DNA of 64,000 nt from Henricia sp. BOLD:AAB3569 (lineage: Eukaryota; Echinodermata; Asteroidea; Spinulosida; Echinasteridae), in contig JBBELK010000832.1 in NCBI GenBank assembly GCA_037783545.1, positions 62,001 through 126,000 of the forward strand. Direction: 5' to 3'. The notes beneath the pieces are model-generated. The model saw only the letters and a list, made by a program, of their open reading frames with translations. It was not told the origin of the DNA and did not search any database. Below, piece after piece: positions 985-50,778 of the stretch (positions within the stretch are counted from its first letter, which is position 1; each line of letters opens with the position of its first letter). Both the position numbers and the translations under genes were made by a program.

Positions 985-1170
985 TCCAGTAGGGTATTTC
1001 GAGAAACTTTCGCAGTTGCGTAAGCCCACTTGCGCAACGTTTTATTGCGTAAGTCGAGCAACAATTTAGCGATGATAACACGCAAGCTATGGGGCTTGCG
1101 CCATTTTGCAAAAGTTGCGCAGGCTGCGCACTCCTTCGTGAAATCGGCTGCCGATCATTTTTAGGCACCT
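985..1170. mobile_element. Dispersed MITE related to the palindrome centre
   Basis: Shares GCGTAAGCCCACTTGCGCAA, GATAACACGCAAGCTATG and TTCGTGAAATCGGCTG with 49780-49940. The left terminus is eroded. A 5' fragment of the same family is at 37793-37845. Confidence 0.7.
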
Positions 1171-2049
1171 GGCAAAATTGGCTTTCTTTGAAAAGGCAAA
1201 GTCAAGTTCACATGCATTTATTGGGATGAAAAAAGCAGCAGTACAGGTAGGGTAGCACACAGCTGCAAGGCAAATTGTGCCAGGAAGACACAGCCTAGGG
1301 ACTCGATCCACATCACTCCACACTTGGTTCAAGAGAGGCCAAAACCTACACTTGTTGTTTTGCCATGTCAGGAATAAGACGAGCCATCTTGTTTCAACAT
1401 TGACTGCCATTAGAATAATGGCTTTTCAACTGGGCAAATGGCATTATTTGACAAAGCCCTAAGTGTTTTGGAGAAACTGTGCAGAACAAGAAAGGTTTGG
1501 CAAGAAAAGTCTGGAAGCAGAGAGCGAAATAAGATCTAAGAGTATAAACAATGTACATGTATGAAAGGAGTGTAGAGTGATTCCATGAATACTGCCTATT
1601 TTTAGTAGAATTTAGAAACAACTTCCTTTTTTTCATTCTTTAGACCAAAACTACACAATATCAAGTGTTCGCTTTCATCAAGTTTCGAGTTGAGATCACA
1701 ATTTTTAATATCGGTTTTGAAACCTAAAAAGAGTGTAGCCTACAATGTACATACTCTCTATGGTATATAGGGCCTGCAATATTTTTTCCAGTTAACGGCT
1801 GTTTCAAAATATCTTGAAATTTAAAATTCATGCCTTGTAAGAGGCTGCTCAGCAATAACTATCAGTTATTTCACAAGTTTTGTGAAATGTCTTGAGTGTT
1901 AGGCATTACATGTATATGACCAACACACAAATTCCATTCTAGAATGATTGTTTTAGAAATAGCCTACATGTACTGTGTCCCACATGTAACGCTTTTCACG
2001 TCAACCAAAGAATATCTCAAACTTAACAAAATTTTTGCTGATTATCTAC

Positions 2050-2364
2050 TAAAGGTAGTATACTTGTTTGGTAAACTGTTCAAAACGGCATGATTTCCAC
2101 TGGTAATTGAAAGCCTAGGTCGAAAAAACTACCTTGTACAGATGCAGTAATACTTCAGAAAACCTGAAAAATCCAAGTATGGGTTTTATGCACGATTCAA
2201 ATAACTTTCGTAATTTTTCTCATGAATGGGGGCAATTCAGATAAAATAATTTCACAGAATGATTACTACCATTACCATCTGGATAACAAGTAAGCTTTTA
2301 AAAAAGATAATAATTCAGAAATGTTTTTGGAGGGTAGTTACCAAACAAGTAGACTACCTTTAAC
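2050..2364. mobile_element. TTAA-type MITE, AAAGGTAGTATACTTG termini
   Basis: AAAGGTAGTATACTTGTTTG at the left and CAAGTAGACTACCTTTAA at the right form inverted termini. The interior resembles 9954-10312 (TTTCCACTGGTAATTGAAAG). Confidence 0.65.
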
Positions 2365-2944
2365 TGAAACAATTGATAACCCTGCTGAGAAGTACTTTAA
2401 CATGATGTAGCCCTACAGGCCTACCAGTTTAAAGTCAGTAGATATACACATCCATGGTTATTTTTGTCAATTGAAATTTTGAAATTATGGTTGACAGATA
2501 CATGTATTTCATGTACTGTTATTTTGTAACACCCTATGTGCTCGTAGTTTCCGCAGCCAGCAGCCGCAACATTTCAATGTCTCAACTTCTCAATTCTGAC
2601 ACAGCGAGGGTCCAACTCAAAGCAATTTGTCTCAATCTTCTTTCATTTCAGAGTACCTTTTTTTTTCGCAGGTGGTGGGGGCCCAACCATAGAGAAGGCC
2701 ATTTAAAGCACCTATCGCTTTCTAGGAAACTGTTTCACATACCCTATACGCCCAGCCAAAACAAAGTTAGCTGCCTGTTCTTTAAAACTCTGGTATTTCT
2801 GAGGTCATCAAGATTCACCCCAGGAATTTGTAATGACCTAAATGCCCCCAAAATGTTTACTGTTTAACATCCTCTGTGGTCCTTCTGCTGCACTTGAACT
2901 TGTCTGCCAAATAAGGTCAACAGCTTTCTTTTATCTTTAAAATG

Positions 2945-3075
2945 TAGAATTTATCTGCCCTTACACGACATGAAGTGCACTCTATGTGATTTATCCGAGC
3001 CACACACTAAAAACCTTATAGGGACTCGAACTCGCAACCTTGTAAATGCTTGGCAGTGGAAGCACTCAACAATTG
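2945..3075 (-). mobile_element. Diverged SINE related to 28470-28600
   Basis: The minus strand shows GCGAGTTCGAGTCCC (B box) preceded by a degraded head. The 3' side has CTCGGATAAATCACATAGAG and CATGTCGTGTAAGGGCA, parallel to the SINE at 28.5 kb. Confidence 0.5.
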
Positions 3076-3093
3076 ATCAATTAGCATATTACA

Positions 3094-3195
3094 CTAAAGA
3101 CCTTTTCACACTTGAAAATTCTTAGGGTTGATGCGGGCTTAATGCGGGGTTGAGTTCACCCCGGGTTGAAAGGCTGAAGTGTGAAAAGGCCTTAA
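3094..3195. mobile_element. 102-bp MITE, CTTTTCACACTT termini
   Basis: CTAAAGACCTTTTCACACTT and AAGTGTGAAAAGGCCTTAAG are inverted. GGGTTGA repeats lie between them. Confidence 0.65.
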
Positions 3196-4327
3196 GATTG
3201 TGCGAATTCTCTCTGGGATCAATTATAATTGAATCCAAGATGGGAATCGGAATTATGATTCCATCTTCCAATTATCTTGCTGATTCCAATAAGTACATGT
3301 ACCCGGTGATTCTTAATGTTTAAACGAATGCGGAATTACAAAATAAAAATAAAAAATTGCAGTTTTTGTATCAGATTTGAAAGATATTTTTCTGATTATA
3401 GGTATCAGCTTTTTAAAAAAAATGGAATGGAATCTGAATAGAATCTAAAGTGGAATTAGAATCCATTCTAAAAATGTTGGAATTGCCTCATCTACATAAA
3501 ACGGTGCTCACTTCATGTACTTGGCACAATACCTCCCTCAAAAAGTACAATACAAAACCATCGAAATTGGAATGAATCCTCATACCAACATGAAAATCAG
3601 GCATGTATACATGTATAGTATGCATTCTTGTATTAAACGTTACTCCCAAATATACACTGAAAATATTTGTCAATTAAAAAACAAAATTACAACAATTCCA
3701 AGTGCCCCGCCCCAATCCTGCATGCCACGGAATTCAACCGTTGAATCATCACAGCTAATATCTGTCCTTGCACTCTACCTTTTATCAAAACAACTTCCTG
3801 CTTTTTATTGGAAAAAAAAACCTCACAGTTTCGCTTTGCGATTCCCAAAGCACAATGAGCCTGTTGCTAAGTTATTTGGTTGCTAGGCAACGGTGGCTCA
3901 CCCAGTGACAGCTGGACACATTGCTATGGCAACCGTGCAAGGCTAGCTGCGGGACCGCATGCAGGCTCAATGGCGGATACTTCCTGGACTGAGCTATCTT
4001 AAACTGTTCCTTCCTCTCTGCATAACACAATTTCCTGGGTAAAAAAATGTTTCCCTGTATGTATACACATGCAATGGAGATGTGTATATTTTTGCCTAGA
4101 GTTTAAAAAGTTGGAAGACTTTTTGAACTTTGTTTCTCCTCAGGAAGAGAAGCAAAGTTGAAATGTCCTGTGGGGCCTTATTATTATCAAACACTCCACA
4201 GTAGTTATCATGACCCTTAGTTACATGTTTTGTAAAAGAGTGAAAACCACTCTTTTTAGAGCCATATTTTGAACAACTCATTTTGGATTGGAAATTGTCC
4301 TCTTTTAGAGTTTTGTTTTTATTCTGC
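3196..4327. other. No gene seen; two X-box-like sites
   Basis: AT-rich sequence with a GC-richer patch at about 3840-3990 that holds GTTGCTAGGCAAC (3879-3891) and ATTGCTATGGCAACC (3920-3934), both fitting the RFX X-box palindrome. Confidence 0.4.
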
Positions 4328-6599: not shown

Positions 6600-8469
6600 C
6601 CCATGACAGCTGTGAAATCGCTCTATTACGTTTAAGGTGTATTAAAAGATATTCATTTTTTAATGGGGTTTAGAGACTGCCAAAGTGAATGGGCCAATAT
6701 CATATTTTGATAGTTGCCTTGACGTACATCTATTAGCTCAACACCAAAATAAACTGTCCTTCTGTGGTTTTGCAATGTAAGCTTTATCTGATGGCTCAAT
6801 GTTTAGAACCAGTTACCAATGGCAACTTGTCACACATTGGTTCCCATTGCACTTGTGCACCCCCTTTCGCCCCTCACCCAAATCATATATGTACGGTACA
6901 TGTATACATTATAGTGGCTTCAACAAGCATTCTGAATACGTCTTTGTCCTCATGTGAGAGGAATTGTGCGTACATTTTTCAATGCTAAATTGATTTTACT
7001 TGAAAAGTTTAACAGTTTCTAACGGGAAAGACAACTTTCTTTATGAAAACTGCGAAACAAATCCAGCAGTTTTGTATTCTTATTCTAAAAAATTGTCTGC
7101 CAAATTTTAGATAAAATGGGGAATCTGGAGGCAATGGAAAAACAGCTTAATTGGCTCCAAAAATGTAGCCAACAGTTTTTGGTTCACCTTGAAAACGTCA
7201 AACTCCTTTTGTGCGAATACAAACTTATTTGCCACTCAATAAGCCAATTAGGGCTAATCATTAAACTTTCCGAGTTCCACAACAATGCCAATAATTTTCC
7301 GTTTTCCACTTAGGCCTATACTTTGGCTGAATTTGATCTGGGTTACATGAACAGATCTTTAGTTGGATTATTAAATACTAATGACCCCAACATTGGACAG
7401 GTGAGGCTGAACAGCATAGGCCTATATCCCTGCCACAAGTGCAGAACTTTAAAAGTACTGCACAAATAAAATTTTAGAATAAAATGCACTTTTTCAGCAG
7501 TTGCAGCACAAAGAAAGAGGGATATGCAGTGCGTACATGTAGGTCTAGAAATAAAATCCCCCAAAAAGCCCACAAGGAGACAAAGGTAATTAAATCCTGA
7601 CATCTAGGTTTGTTTTTCAGTAGCCATGGCAACGTCCCAAAGCAGATGTCCTGTCGAGGGAAGTCTTTGTTTTGGTACGCTGCAGCGAGCAGGTGCGATA
7701 GGGTTACAATAGGGAAGTGTGCTGTATGTATAGGCCTACAACTTGCACAATTCAGGGTGTTCGATAATTCTAGTAAAAAAAAAGCCAAGTGAACTTTGGC
7801 ACGTGGTGCCCCACTGGTTAAGTGGTGGGGGAGAGCATTGGCACCAAAAATACTTGGCTAATTAGAAACTTTCAAGAAGAACAGAATATAAGTTTGTGCA
7901 AGTTGTGGTAAGCAAAACTACCATTTGCTTGTTCAGATGACATTGTTTCAGATGCTTTCAAAACTAGCTCGAAATATTTTGGTTTCAGGACTGAATAAAC
8001 ATATTGTCAGTTGAAACTACATTAAAGGTACATGTACTTTGTCTGAACTTGGGGGCAATTTAAACTGAGTTGAATGTCAAGTGGATAGTTTTCTTGATTT
8101 ACCAAAACTGTCAGCCTTTAATTGAGTGAGATACATGTAGGCCTATAGGTAAACAAATAAAGGGAAAGTTATAGGGGAGGGGGAGGGGAAATGTGCATTA
8201 CAAGAAACTTTGGGGGACGTCAAAGTTATATATTGCACCATTTTGTTCCATCAAGATGTTTCAGCAAACCCCCCAAAAAACTACCAATTTTTCATTCATT
8301 CTTTCAAGGTGAAAAAACATCGAGCACAAATTCATTTAACTTTTATTTTATGTAAATACTCCTCATTCCAATGAAAAAGCCTATTGTTACAACAAACAGC
8401 CTAGAGAAAGACAGAAATTCAGCAAAGAAAACTAAATTCACAAAATGTTTAATAAAAGAAAAAGTTGAA
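6600..8469 (-). other. foxN2/3 intron, exon-proximal part
   Basis: Downstream of the donor on the minus strand. No sequence encoding the remaining forkhead segment is recognisable. GTAGCCATGGCAAC at 7620-7633 fits an X-box. The rest is AT-rich and unassigned. Confidence 0.5.
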
Positions 8470-8475
8470 ACTTAC
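8470..8475 (-). other. Splice donor of the foxN2/3 exon
   Basis: On the minus strand the exon ends ...AGCTTG followed by GTAAGT, a near-consensus U2 donor. Coding similarity to the FoxN forkhead domain stops within a few residues of it; translation beyond gives ISLVSF and then a stop. The intron is phase 0. Confidence 0.85.
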
Positions 8476-9051
8476 CAAGCTAATTTGTCCCTTGATTTTG
8501 TCGACTTTACGGAAGCATTTGTTGAGAGAAAGGTTGTGCCTTACAGAGTTCTTCCAGCCCGTGGGAGCATTGTGGAAGTATGGAAAGTGGTCCTGGATCC
8601 ACTGATAAATGTCCTTAACTGGAAGACGTTTGAGCGGCGAGTCCTCGATCGCCATGAAAATCAGACAGCTGAACGAGAAAGGAGGTTTGCTGTTGATGTG
8701 TCGTTTGGGGTCTAGAAAACCGTCCTCACCGACCGCCAGACCATTGAGTTTATTCAGCATGCCCTCGCTGCCGGCCATGCCAGCATGGTTCTCCTTGGAA
8801 TTCCCGTCTTCATTGTCCAAGTTCATGTCTTTGAGTAAGTCTGAGCTGTGCAGCCAGCTGAGCGGCCGCAATTCGTCGTCGTCCATTGTGCCCTTCTCCG
8901 TCTTGATCTCGGCGAAACAGCAGCTACTGCTAAGGTCCATTTTGGCCCGGCTGCCGAGGACCCGCGACAACGTGGCACTGGGGAAGCTTTTACTCAGGCC
9001 TAGTGTTACGTGTCTCTTCAGTAAGGGCTCTGGCTTACGATTGGGCGGCAT
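8476..9051 (-). CDS. foxN2/3: FoxN2/3 forkhead transcription factor, first recognised coding exon (partial gene)
   Basis: This exon encodes 192 residues of a nuclear DNA-binding protein of the FoxN2/FoxN3 (CHES1) group. Residues 1-8 read MPPNRKPE, close to the MPPSKKPE near the N-terminus of vertebrate FOXN3, so I start at the ATG at 9051-9049. A further in-frame ATG at 9078 falls upstream of a likely splice acceptor (TTTACCTGCCAG, exon beginning at 9052). Residues 56-74 ([19 protein letters not shown]) match the conserved acidic N-terminal motif of the group. The forkhead domain starts near residue 121 ([19 protein letters not shown]) and contains the recognition helix at about 165-180 ([16 protein letters not shown]). 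The exon ends in phase 0 at residue 192, at a GTAAGT donor (8475-8470). The expected continuation (GKGSLWC...) is not seen below it, so the gene runs off the left edge. In sea urchins foxN2/3 acts in the skeletogenic network; in vertebrates FOXN3 is a repressor. A tiny upstream coding exon cannot be excluded. Confidence 0.95.
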
Positions 9052-9052
9052 G

Positions 9053-9090
9053 CTGGCAGGTAAACCCCTATTGGACATACAGAAAAACTA
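9053..9090 (-). other. Splice acceptor region upstream of the foxN2/3 start codon
   Basis: Reading the minus strand there is a pyrimidine-containing stretch (AGTTTTTCTGTATGTCC) and then TTTACCTGCCAG at 9064-9053, one base before the ATG codon. Protein similarity to FOXN3 begins just downstream. This suggests that the 5' UTR is carried by one or more upstream exons at higher coordinates. An unspliced 5' UTR remains possible. Confidence 0.6.
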
Positions 9091-19895: not shown

Positions 19896-19987
19896 AAATT
19901 TGCACGGTTGCGCAACTGACCAATGTAATAATGAACAAAATATTTGGTATTGTGCCTAATCACCATGGAAATGAAAACCAAACGTGG

Positions 19988-20413
19988 TATTGATTGCTTT
20001 CGATGACGTAGAACATCCGGGAATGTGTGGTGGTCAACAATCACGCGCGTACACGCGCACGCCAATAGATGCACATGAACACGCGTAAAAAGTACTCACC
20101 AGCGTATTTTCATTCGAAGATGCCGCACGTGGGATTTGTGATACGTTCAAATTATTGAGCATGCACTCGGCTTGTAAAAACAAAAGTGCTTTTACTTGAT
20201 CGCGATGTTTAGCTTGAACAAATGCGTTTTTATCTTTCTCGATACAACAGCCATGGTGCAACAACATAAAGCTAGTTCAAGAAACAGAGGTAAGTGCAAC
20301 CAATGCGCTTTTCTTGCTCTTTTTGCAGATCATTACTCGAGCCACGCGGGTCATGAAAAATGCCCACCAAAATGGTGGAAGGAAGAGGTGACGTCACCGG
20401 AAAGCAATCAATA
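19988..20413. mobile_element. TTGATTGCTTTC-terminal MITE, copy 1
   Basis: TATTGATTGCTTTCGATGAC at the left and GTCACCGGAAAGCAATCAAT at the right, with TA on both sides. It aligns in reverse with 24739-25175. A 72-residue open frame (20196-20414) recurs in the other copy, with an extra Thr-Cys pair there. This copy also contains GTAAGT and a pyrimidine-rich TTTTTGCAG 39 bases apart, an intron-like arrangement that is probably too short to splice. Confidence 0.78.
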
Positions 20414-24738: not shown

Positions 24739-25175
24739 ATTGATTGCTTTCCGGTGACGTCACCCCTTCCATCCACCATTTTGGTGGGAATTTTTCATGA
24801 CCCACGTGGCTCGAGTAATAACCGGCAAAAAGAGCAAGAAAAGCGCATTGGTTGCACTTACATGTACCTCTGTTGCTTGAACTAGCTTTATGTTGTTGCG
24901 CCATGGCTGTTGTATCGAGAAAGATAAAAACGCATTTCTTCAGGCTAAACATCGCGATCAAGTACATGTAAAAGCACTTTCGTTTTTACAAGCCGAGTGC
25001 ATGCTCAATAATTTGAACGCATCACAACGCCTGCGTGCGGCATCTTCGAATGAAAATACGCTAATGAGTATTTTTCACGCGTGTTCATGTGCGTCTGTTG
25101 GCGCGCGTGTGTACGCGCGTGACTGTTGACCACCAAACATTCCCGGATGTTCTACGTCATCGAAAGCAATCAATA
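24739..25175. mobile_element. TTGATTGCTTTC-terminal MITE, copy 2, nested
   Basis: Inverted relative of 19988-20413. It splits another MITE: to the left GTTACCATTGTTATCA and to the right ACTTTGAGTAAGG continue the sequence seen uninterrupted at about 10235-10265. This shows its insertion is younger than that element. Confidence 0.78.
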
Positions 25176-25840
25176 CTTTGAGTAAGGTCCTTCTTGTCAA
25201 CTCATCATTACAAATGATATAATGGGTCTTTAATTTGAACACAACTTCTACACATGCAAACAGAGGGAAAAAAAACCTAAGTGAGACATGCAGTAGGGAA
25301 TAGATGAAGTAGTCCCACGATGATGTGTTTACTTATTCAATTTTGCCCATTGCTTAGAGCACTGTAAAACATGCATCCAGGAGTAGCAGAGTAAACAGTA
25401 TGTTGGTTTAGACAGTGAGGAGCAATTGGAGCTACAGTATCGCGTAACACAGGCAAAAATTGACATCGTTCAACCTCGTTTGCTTTGCTTGGCCTGTATT
25501 TTAAAGACGGTCTTTTTTGTGACATTCACATTGTCAATTTCAACAACATCCACACAGTGAAAGACAATGATAAAATCACAAACAAAGGTCTGGTCACACA
25601 TGCGTCAAACGTCAAGTATGATGTGCAAAGTTTGAATTTAAAAATATCTATATTTTTGGACGAGCCAAATTAACATTTAATCCTGAAATAGACATTTAAC
25701 ATTTCTAATAGAGATACCGGTATATCTCTGTTTGAAATAAGTCTCTCATTCAGGATAAAATTTTAACTTGGTACATCCTGAAATACATATATTTCTAAAT
25801 GCTATATTTGCATGCCATACGTTAAATAACTATTTTTCCC

Positions 25841-37410: not shown

Positions 37411-37792
37411 CTATAGATGTCTCAAAATAAGACATCCTTACAAAGAGCACTTGAATTTGCATATTCATGAGGAAAGTCATCTGTCCTATCTATGATTAGA
37501 TTAATTAACTGAGTAGTTCTGTATGATTGTAATATTTATTATAAGTCCTATCTGTCTGTCTTCTTTGTGTGTAATGTCACTGTCAGTTATACAGGTATAT
37601 GTCACCTTTGTTCAAATTTTATTGACCATAGGCCTATAGTTAGGCCCTACTCTTGTATTTATTTTACCATATATACGTTTATTGTAAGCCAAATATGTTT
37701 AGTCTTCAGATGTTTTCTTTGGTATCTATTTTTAATAATAAAAACCGAAAATTAGGCACCCAGGAATTTTTCATTGGTTTCTGCATGCACAG

Positions 37793-37845
37793 CAGCCGAT
37801 TTCACGAATCCTTACGCACTGCGTAAGCCCGATTGCGCAACTTTT
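37793..37845. mobile_element. Fragment of the CAGCCGATTTCACGAA MITE family
   Basis: Begins CAGCCGATTTCACGAATCC and continues GCACTGCGTAAGCCCGATTG, then stops. About one third of the element is present. Confidence 0.6.
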
Positions 37846-38015
37846 TATTGTGGGAGAAATTGCCAACTAAATGTGGGTTCATAAAAAGGTTGTTTGCAGA
37901 CATTTTTTTACCATTCATTCACACACAAAAAACATGCATGGATTTTTCAGTATTACTGCATCTATGTGGCTGAAATTTCTACAAGGCAGTTTTTAACAGT
38001 TTACCAATAATGCTT
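37846..38015. mobile_element. CATTTGCAGT-family MITE fragment
   Basis: GGGAGAAATTGCCAACTAAA, ACAAAAAACATGCATGGATT and AGGCAGTTTTTAACAGTTTA match the right two thirds of 45514-45830. It abuts the MITE fragment ending at 37845. Confidence 0.65.
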
Positions 38016-48950: not shown

Positions 48951-48959
48951 AAAGTACGT
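48951..48959 (+). repeat. Left copy of 9-bp target site duplication AAAGTACGT
   Basis: Matches 50770-50778 exactly in direct orientation and abuts the palindromic element. Confidence 0.75.
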
Positions 48960-50769
48960 TACTTCCAAATACTGAAAGCCGTCCAGATCAAACTGTACGG
49001 CTTTCAAGAACAGCATTTTTCCCCCCATCAAAACCGTTGGCAAAATGGAATCTTTAGTTTACTCATTTTACAGGAAATTGCTATTTTTGGTAAAATATGA
49101 ATCTCCACACGTTCTACATACCTCCCTGGCTGAAATTGTCTGAAAAGTGGCGTACATTCGTCCGTAAAACCCGAATCTTTCAGGAGCAATCATACGGCAT
49201 GTCTTGTAGAATTTTTCCCCTTTTCAAGATGGCGGATGTAGACTCGGCGCAGTCGTTCTTTCGGCCACCAGCACGTACTAGCACGGTACAGACAAGGGGG
49301 GCGCTGTTCACATTTATTCGCTCTTGCCTGTGGGCATGTACCGTTCCGCCGGCCGGCGCTCCGCTGGCGAATCCACAGTCACTGACGCGAGTACACGTTA
49401 AAAATGTGATATATTTCCTCATGGCTTGCATCTCTGAATTGTTTATATATTTTTGTAAATTGATAGTTAGTTAGAAAACCTACAAGCTGTTTAATTATCG
49501 ACCAATTACTCTCAAAATGATTGTCCATGTATGACAATTGCGTTGTTTACACGTTGCCAATGTCTCAACTACGAATGAAGTATGATTTTTTCTTCAGCAA
49601 TTCCGTTAGATGACGAAAAATATTGCCACCCAACTCCCCTTCCCTCCCTCCCAATTAAACAAATTGTAAAACAAAAATCAGAAAGGACTCGATAAGAACC
49701 ACAGAACCTCTCGAAACTATACAATTCCAGGCGCCTATAGCTTTTGAGTAAGGATGCCGCCAACTTTTTTAAGCACCTGCAGCCGATTTCACGAAGCATT
49801 GCGCACTGCGTAAACCCACTTGCGCAACATTTTATTGCGTAAGTTGCGCAACATTCTTCCGAAGATAACACGCAGGCTATGAAGCTTGCGCCATTTGTCA
49901 AAAGTTGCGCAAGCTGCGCAATGCTTCGTGAAATCGGCTGCAGGTGCTTAAAAAAGTTGGCGGCATCCTTACTCAAAAGCTATAGGCGCCTGGAATTGTA
50001 TAGTTTCGAGAGGTTCTGTGGTTCTTATCGAGTCCTTTCTGATTTTTGTTTTACAATTTGTTTAATTGGGAGGGAGGGAAGGGGAGTTGGGTGGCAATAT
50101 TTTTCGTCATCTAACGGAATTGCTGAAGAAAAAATCATACTTCATTCGTAGTTGAGACATTGGCAACGTGTAAACAACGCAATTGTCATACATGGACAAT
50201 CATTTTGAGAGTAATTGGTCGATAATTAAACAGCTTGTAGGTTTTCTAACTAACTATCAATTTACAAAAATATATAAACAATTCAGAGATGCAAGCCATG
50301 AGGAAATATATCACATTTTTAACGTGTACTCGCGTCAGTGACTGTGGATTCGCCAGCGGAGCGCCGGCCGGCGGAACGGTACATGCCCACAGGCAAGAGC
50401 GAATAAATGTGAACAGCGCCCCCCTTGTCTGTACCGTGCTAGTACGTGCTGGTGGCCGAAAGAACGACTGCGCCGAGTCTACATCCGCCATCTTGAAAAG
50501 GGGAAAAATTCTACAAGACATGCCGTATGATTGCTCCTGAAAGATTCGGGTTTTACGGACGAATGTACGCCACTTTTCAGACAATTTCAGCCAGGGAGGT
50601 ATGTCATGTATGTAGAACGTGTGGAGATTCATATTTTACCAAAAATAGCAATTTCCTGTAAAATGAGTAAACTAAAGATTCCATTTTGCCAACGGTTTTG
50701 ATGGGGGGAAAAATGCTGTTCTTGAAAGCCGTACAGTTTGATCTGGACGGCTTTCAGTATTTGGAAGTA
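48960..50769. mobile_element. 1.81-kb near-perfect palindromic element with 9-bp target duplication
   Basis: The left arm (48960-49805) and right arm (49915-50769) are reverse complements over their whole length as far as I can read. The one clear difference is 9 extra bases (ATGACATAC) in the right arm near 50600. The arms begin TACTTCCAAATACTGAAAGC and are separated by a 109-bp loop. AAAGTACGT flanks the unit on both sides (48951-48959 and 50770-50778), as expected for a 9-bp target site duplication, the size typical of Mutator-like (MULE) elements. A small hairpin (GAAAGCCGT/ACGGCTTTC) lies just inside each end. No transposase is recognisable. The arms contain an ATG-initiated reading frame (49097-49474 and its mirror 50632-50246) of unknown meaning. 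Confidence 0.88.
49780..49940. mobile_element. MITE with CAGCCGATTTCACGAA termini at the palindrome centre
   Basis: The sequence opens CAGCCGATTTCACGAAGC and closes with its reverse complement. Relatives occur at 985-1170 and 37793-37845, so this 161-bp unit is a dispersed family and not just the loop of the large palindrome. It is rich in repeated TTGCGCAA words. Confidence 0.7.
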
Positions 50770-50778
50770 AAAGTACGT
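50770..50778 (+). repeat. Right copy of 9-bp target site duplication AAAGTACGT
   Basis: Matches 48951-48959 exactly in direct orientation and abuts the palindromic element. Confidence 0.75.

Follow-up and report, generated by a model that had tools for sequence, protein, structure and literature searches.

A 64,000-nucleotide stretch of the genome of the sea star Henricia sp. BOLD:AAB3569 (contig C832, positions 62001–126000; referred to as the window in the following) harbors a 1,810-bp palindrome at positions 48960–50769, which is one copy of a family of foldback DNA transposons. We consider it highly probable that this element is a non-autonomous foldback transposon, whose arms are kept alike by re-copying one from the other. 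Foldback elements are a known kind of transposon, and it is the concerted evolution of the arms, together with a single locus that bears the footprint of an overrun into host DNA, that raises this one above the ordinary. To our knowledge, the way in which foldback transposons keep long arms identical has rarely been documented at the level of single events. Since the present family comprises many near-identical copies, changes in one arm and changes in both arms can be counted.

Structure of the palindrome

The two arms, 846 and 855 bp long, were described as reverse complements with a single 9-bp length difference in a preliminary description, which was made from the letters of the window and a list of its open reading frames. 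This proved correct to the base: in the alignment, which includes one adjoining outer base per arm, all 847 of 847 aligned positions are identical, and the sole difference is one 9-bp insertion, seen as a single gap. The longest exact inverted match within the palindrome measures 690 bp, compared with 16–20 bp in ten simulated 64-kb sequences (Markov-1; longest exact inverted match scored, self-palindromes included). The ends of the element (TACTTCC...GGAAGTA) lie inside a direct pair of AAAGTACGT, so that the inverted termini between 9-bp duplications had likewise been read correctly. An imperfect hairpin close to each end represents a possible transposase-binding region, and the center is formed by a miniature inverted-repeat transposable element (MITE). 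The coordinates of these features are collected in Table 1. Tandem Repeats Finder lists no tandem arrays within 48951–50778, an Rfam scan of the window yielded no matches, and a Pfam search with six frames of the window, the arm frames among them, alongside a forkhead control gave no match with E <= 0.1 except for the forkhead frame.

Table 1. Features of the palindrome and MITE relatives in the window
Feature	Position	Strand	Basis
Left target site duplication, 9 bp, AAAGTACGT	48951..48959	+	sequence read directly
Left arm, 846 bp, starts with TACTTCCAAATACTGAAAG	48960..49805	+	arm alignment
Subterminal imperfect hairpin near left end, TGAAAGCCGTCCAG / CTGTACGGCTTTCA	48973..49006	+	inverted-repeat scan
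Central MITE, 163 bp, GCAGCCG...CGGCTGC; its outermost 27 bp at either end form part of the arms	49779..49941	+	sequence read, genome search
Unpaired spacer, 109 nt, MITE interior	49806..49914	+	inverted-repeat scan
Right arm, 855 bp, reverse complement of left arm	49915..50769	-	arm alignment
9 bp in right arm only, ACATACATG on arm strand	50605..50613	-	placement ambiguous within short repeat
Subterminal hairpin, mirror copy near right end	50723..50756	-	inverted-repeat scan
Right target site duplication, 9 bp, AAAGTACGT	50770..50778	+	sequence read directly
Diverged relative of central MITE, outside any such palindrome	996..1151	+	84.7% over 157 aligned
Truncated relative of central MITE	37792..37850	+	88% over 59 bp

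Perfect arms are also the expected product of an assembly or polishing artefact, in which a single arm is read twice or both arms are forced to one consensus. We find this hardly credible here, as the palindrome lies between direct 9-bp duplications and two differing outer flanks, and as the assembly does keep arms apart in the copies analyzed below, where 37 events affect one arm only. Moreover, the same locus is present on a second contig, C504, whose flanks match those of the window at 98.3% identity for the left part and 99.9% for the right part, and whose element has the 9-bp insertion in the same arm. This second contig, with both arms and the identical one-sided indel, argues against an assembly fold-back and bears on the concern, raised in the preliminary description, that only one arm might be real.

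The C504 element (L009:2044–7242), an allelic or duplicated copy, carries a 3,367-bp long terminal repeat (LTR) retrotransposon in its loop, which is flanked by a 4-bp duplication and has two 1,096-bp LTRs of 99.9% identity. When this insert and its duplication are discounted, the 1,828 bp from one target duplication to the other are letter-identical to the window. No empty site was found for the window insertion; the C504 site is also filled.

A family of foldback transposons

When the left arm was used as a query against the 740.7-Mb assembly of 2,104 contigs, 50 matches were obtained, with 40 of 1,028 candidates scored. We read 26 loci by place, 30 around the MITE (12 of which repeat earlier places) and five further end pairs. 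Among the 45 end-to-end pairs, which include the window copy, its C504 counterpart and one 60-bp miniature, the target duplications agree at nine of nine positions in 41 cases if a one-base shift is allowed, and in 34 without it. The remaining pairs comprise one with eight of nine matching positions, L011 with seven, L034 with five, and L025, where the adjoining flank is inverted. The copies thus combine long inverted arms with a short middle, occur at many unrelated sites with a direct duplication of their own at each, and, as far as they were read, have no coding capacity. The preliminary description is thereby borne out on two counts: the element is a fold-back transposon whose 9-bp target duplication is genuine, and it moves as a unit.

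The 22-bp end of the element has 386 and 405 genomic matches on the two strands (at most two mismatches; none for the control). A 19-bp core of this end occurs with other bases behind it in 201 and 190 places (at most one mismatch), which indicates that several families have the same end in common.

Concerted evolution of the arms

For the analysis of arm divergence, we used 25 intact copies of the main subfamily, drawn from 46 sources, of which 21 without an intact close pair were left out. Across about 820 bp, the two arms of the same copy differ by a mean of 1.2 substitutions, compared with 5.3 for shuffled partners, and none of 10,000 shuffles gave a value as low. The arms therefore evolve in concert, with one being re-copied from the other.

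How this happens is reflected in the distribution of individual changes. Of the 14 events shared by at least two copies, 11 are two-armed in every carrier, two are mixed and just one is one-armed; the latter is a 4-bp deletion in a short repeat, which is found in opposite arms and perhaps arose independently. By contrast, 37 of the 58 private events are one-armed and 21 two-armed, with 16 of these 21 belonging to L042, a separate lineage. The difference between shared and private events is significant in Fisher's test (11:3 versus 21:37, p = 0.006), also when L042 is left aside (11:3 versus 5:37, p = 8e-6). This suggests that a mutation arising in a resident copy remains confined to one arm, whereas mutations that have passed through source copies are doubled, and that most homogenization accompanies transposition and affects source copies, instead of proceeding steadily in resident ones. 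On the opposite view, the arms may be homogenized by slow, steady conversion.

The palindrome is older than its subfamilies

A second subfamily, represented by six copies (L041, L045, L051, L053, L057 and L061), differs from the window arm by 40–46 substitutions in 780–804 aligned bases (5–6%) and by 12–14 indels, while the two arms within each of these copies are only 0–6 substitutions apart. One further copy, L060 (2.4% diverged), was placed in neither subfamily set. The second-subfamily copies are centered on the same MITE, with 2–3 differences in the loop, a value that is biased low because these loci were found via the MITE. We defined fixed sites as those at which the major base reaches at least 80% in each arm class, and left gap columns out of the count. 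All 45 of 45 fixed substitution differences between the 25 and the six copies are present in both arms, and none in one arm only.

The palindrome is therefore older than its subfamilies, and its arms have been re-copied since. The preliminary description had taken the arm identity to imply either a recent origin or continuing gene conversion. A young palindrome is unsupported and indeed contradicted, given that the diverged subfamilies have the palindrome and its central MITE in common and that their fixed differences are all two-armed, an observation that instead supports continuing conversion. Arm identity should also be used with caution as a measure of the age of such elements: the copy in the window has identical arms, yet its palindrome predates the subfamilies of its family.

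More distant relatives, 76–84% identical to an old, nested element at L019, also appear symmetric in most of the pairs listed, with centers of about 165–205 bp. The old element itself, the only candidate for a MITE-free relative, has a single-copy center. We considered that the inner arm of the family might have arisen from such a single-copy loop that was converted to a repeat, but rejected this: symmetry is seen in further diverged relatives, several others have unequal arms of differing kinds, and the old element at L019 hence looks like a deletion derivative with a 3-bp match (GCG) at its joint.

The central MITE

The preliminary description had placed the loop inside a separate dispersed MITE with its own termini, and the genome search confirms this. 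The MITE terminus GCAGCCGATTTCACGAA has 3,613 and 3,626 exact genomic matches on the two strands, while the reversed control has none on either; the terminus together with the adjoining palindrome arm has 111 and 114 (at most two mismatches), again with none for the control. Outside the palindrome, this short, non-coding sequence with inverted ends is very abundant in the genome. Three solo MITEs, at positions 1501–1663 of L035, L037 and L058, lie in unrelated flanks. Those of L035 and L037, two contigs with the same flanks, are identical to the loop in the window, and that of L058 is identical to the loop of five other copies. Either the MITE has escaped from palindromes, or palindromes received the same young MITEs as insertions.

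The second origin offered in the preliminary description was fold-back replication across the MITE hairpin, giving a palindrome that later moved as a unit. The inverted arms directly abut the MITE at either end, and no direct duplication separates them from it, as would be expected from such an event. Insertion of a MITE may leave the same picture, however. No consistent target duplication was seen in about seven solo copies, and the solo MITE of L058 is situated within a tandem array, the neighboring units of which resemble near-empty sites and suggest a duplication of zero or at most 1 bp. Direct abutment thus needs no fold-back, and fits fold-back replication and insertion with subsequent re-symmetrization alike. 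With 225 palindrome-flanked MITE ends listed in the genome, and with a center common to the 25 main and six second-subfamily copies, a fold-back event, if there was any, would have been ancestral. As a recent event it is very improbable, and for the window copy it is already contradicted by the age of the palindrome.

An inverted host flank at locus L025

At L025 (C46:2219800–2225700), the palindrome runs 465 bp into the host flank on both sides. Direct GGGCGAAGC duplications are found at 1521–1529 and 3809–3817. The left one is directly followed by TACTTCCA, the first 8 bp of the element end (1530–1537), then by an exact reverse complement of the right flank 3809–4273 (1538–2002; 465 bp), and only then by the complete element (2003–3808), the right GGGCGAAGC and the right flank. 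The left target duplication is hence displaced outward. A dispersed repeat in the flank is full-length in the right copy and ends 17 bp short in the left, which identifies the left copy as the derived one. One substitution and one indel now distinguish the arms, and would have arisen since the presumed overrun.

These features suggest an arm repair from the opposite arm that ran past the end of the transposon. In the simplest history, the element would have inserted in the ordinary way and would later have broken some 8 bp in from its left end; the left arm would then have been copied from the right, with an overrun into 465 bp of the right flank, and rejoined to the left stub. L025 looks like an arm-templated repair, frozen together with its overrun into host DNA.

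The repeat in this flank (L025:3863–4290) is a 427-bp minisatellite-like dispersed sequence (ACCGGAAAACACC...) with 4,393 first-look candidates in the genome, of which the best-scored listed copies are 99–100% identical.

Arm copying and its alternatives

A different route to identical arms would be that they are re-made at each jump, via an intermediate, single-stranded or hairpin, that comprises the loop and just one arm, from which the second arm is synthesized. This would account for the excess of two-armed changes among shared and of one-armed changes among private variants, and it is in line with the fact that the only clearly inherited one-sided change adjoins the loop. The two-armed pattern, however, would also result from slow conversion in a small number of source copies, the ordinary 9-bp duplications fit a double-stranded insertion, and L025 shows an arm copied within an already inserted element, as the copied stretch takes in that insertion's own flank. 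We therefore judge a re-making at each jump to be quite unlikely.

Several observations weigh against the re-copying of arms as we describe it. Some one-sided changes are inherited: an AT beside the MITE is one-sided in four copies and two-sided in one, and a one-armed variant is found in two of the six second-subfamily copies. Just 29 of 50 arms have their closest match in the partner from the same copy, and 23 of these 29 involve ties; sister arms are recovered in the tree for only 10 of 32 copies. We attribute the last two results to low resolution among near-identical copies. Finally, the run-on structure occurs in only one of the 45 end pairs, and no second haplotype of the L025 locus that would show its prior state is present in the assembly.

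For the arm copying we favor, the following course can be envisaged. The TACTTCCAAATACTGAAAG ends would be recognized by a transposase provided in trans, probably one of the Mutator (MULE) superfamily, and the whole palindrome, which demonstrably inserts as a unit, would be integrated with duplication of a 9-bp target. When one arm suffers a break or gap, it would pair with the opposite, inverted arm and be copied outward; at times, as the footprint at L025 suggests, this copying would overrun the transposon end into host DNA. Going further, we tentatively put forward the idea of a self-templating hairpin: the arms would template each other, a source copy would be re-symmetrized around transposition, so that any mutation ends up in both arms or in neither, the MITE would serve as the pivot, and occasional overruns would produce new inverted host DNA. 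If so, overrun would offer foldback elements a route to lengthen their arms and build larger palindromes, and it would constitute a testable source of palindromes in host genomes.

Superfamily and related systems

MULEs are described as having target duplications of 8–11 bp and terminal inverted repeats (TIRs) that often measure hundreds of base pairs (PMC6446971). The 9-bp duplications fall within this range and, together with the long termini, make membership of the Mutator superfamily probable. The MULE transposase domain PF10551 has 19 matches above the Pfam cut-off in the genome; none was seen near element ends among the 100 of 791 and 100 of 391 end positions listed, with the flanks of the 19 matches left unread. 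On contig C504, which carries the second copy of the locus, four MULE-domain matches lie within 37 kb (G000:C504:607053–644117). Among the longer end-to-end copies, no autonomous relative or transposase was found in open frames of at least 120 codons, which were assessed without a family search. The three candidates L065, L066 and L034 were rejected, as they are palindromes broken up by other inserts.

With no transposase linked to these ends, the element could also belong to another superfamily, such as the P-related Galileo group or Merlin. We consider this somewhat unlikely in view of the duplication length found in 41 of the 45 pairs, the frequency of long TIRs in MULEs, and the MULE domains encoded in the genome.

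Among known systems, the TU elements of the sea urchin, said to have been described by Lieberman in 1983, come from another invertebrate deuterostome and reportedly have long inverted terminal repeats and modular inner parts; by description, their 8-bp duplications and outer tandem repeats set them apart from the present family. The Foldback (FB) elements of Drosophila and the Tetris elements of D. virilis are close to the present family in plan. Arm domains made of tandem repeats, as in FB, Tetris and the Tm1 elements of Meloidogyne, are absent here, although such domains do not occur in every foldback-like element.

Tetris resembles our family in its long inverted arms, its short non-coding middle and in that no coding copy was found, and its probable Mutator membership has been argued from duplications of 8–10 bp (PMC4079207). 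Its arms, however, hold tandem repeats of about 220 bp (PMC4079207), whereas the arms described here are one unique sequence around a MITE center. Tm1, a Mutator/Foldback element with MITE-like as well as transposase-bearing members, shares the mostly 9-bp duplications (45 of 53 with 8–10 bp) and foldback-like TIRs (PMC3169594). Yet these TIRs consist of 13–15 bp tandem repeats and are identical in only five of 61 cases, with a mean identity of 93.15% (PMC3169594), in contrast to the low arm divergence in the 25 intact copies of our main subfamily.

Parallels to the copying process itself are found in two other systems. In the gap filling of animal Pack-TIR elements, a break in a TIR transposon is repaired from nearby sequence, often a few kilobases away (PMC8277862). 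There, the filler comes from another template and lands inside the element, whereas at L025 the template was apparently the opposite arm and the overrun consists of the element's own flank. In ISWpi1, recombination between TIRs makes both inverted ends of one copy identical by conversion (PMC3004938); this is a bacterial insertion sequence with 23-bp ends, as opposed to arms of about 850 bp in an animal genome, a whole family and one overrun. In the literature covered, which includes few subscription journals, we recognized no description of this family or of this kind of overrun.

Further palindromes and neighboring features

At L031 (C412; 2007–4433), an element is embedded in an arm of a different palindrome, whose opposite arm has, at the corresponding position, a 60-bp hairpin composed of only two 28-bp element ends, with the duplication GGGTGAGTG in mirrored form. 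The arms of this palindrome differ at one site in their outer 93 bp and at two sites in the next 65 bp.

A second family of palindromes, 0.7–0.95 kb long, is represented by L066–L069, with L066 enlarged by inserts. It shares the outer 198 bp, at about 94–95% identity in most comparisons, and has different inner arms and a different 87-bp center; the arms of L067 differ at two of 428 positions. A genome search with this 87-bp center as a possible MITE gave 276 candidates, 40 of which were scored.

Within the window, inverted repeats of 107–212 bp, 92–94% alike and about 4.3–4.8 kb apart, are located at 19987–20412 and 24739–25176 and are possibly the ends of another long foldback element. Lastly, a forkhead-domain exon, perhaps FoxN-like and a mark of animal DNA, is found at 8449–9087 on the minus strand (Pfam PF00250, E 8.5e-30).
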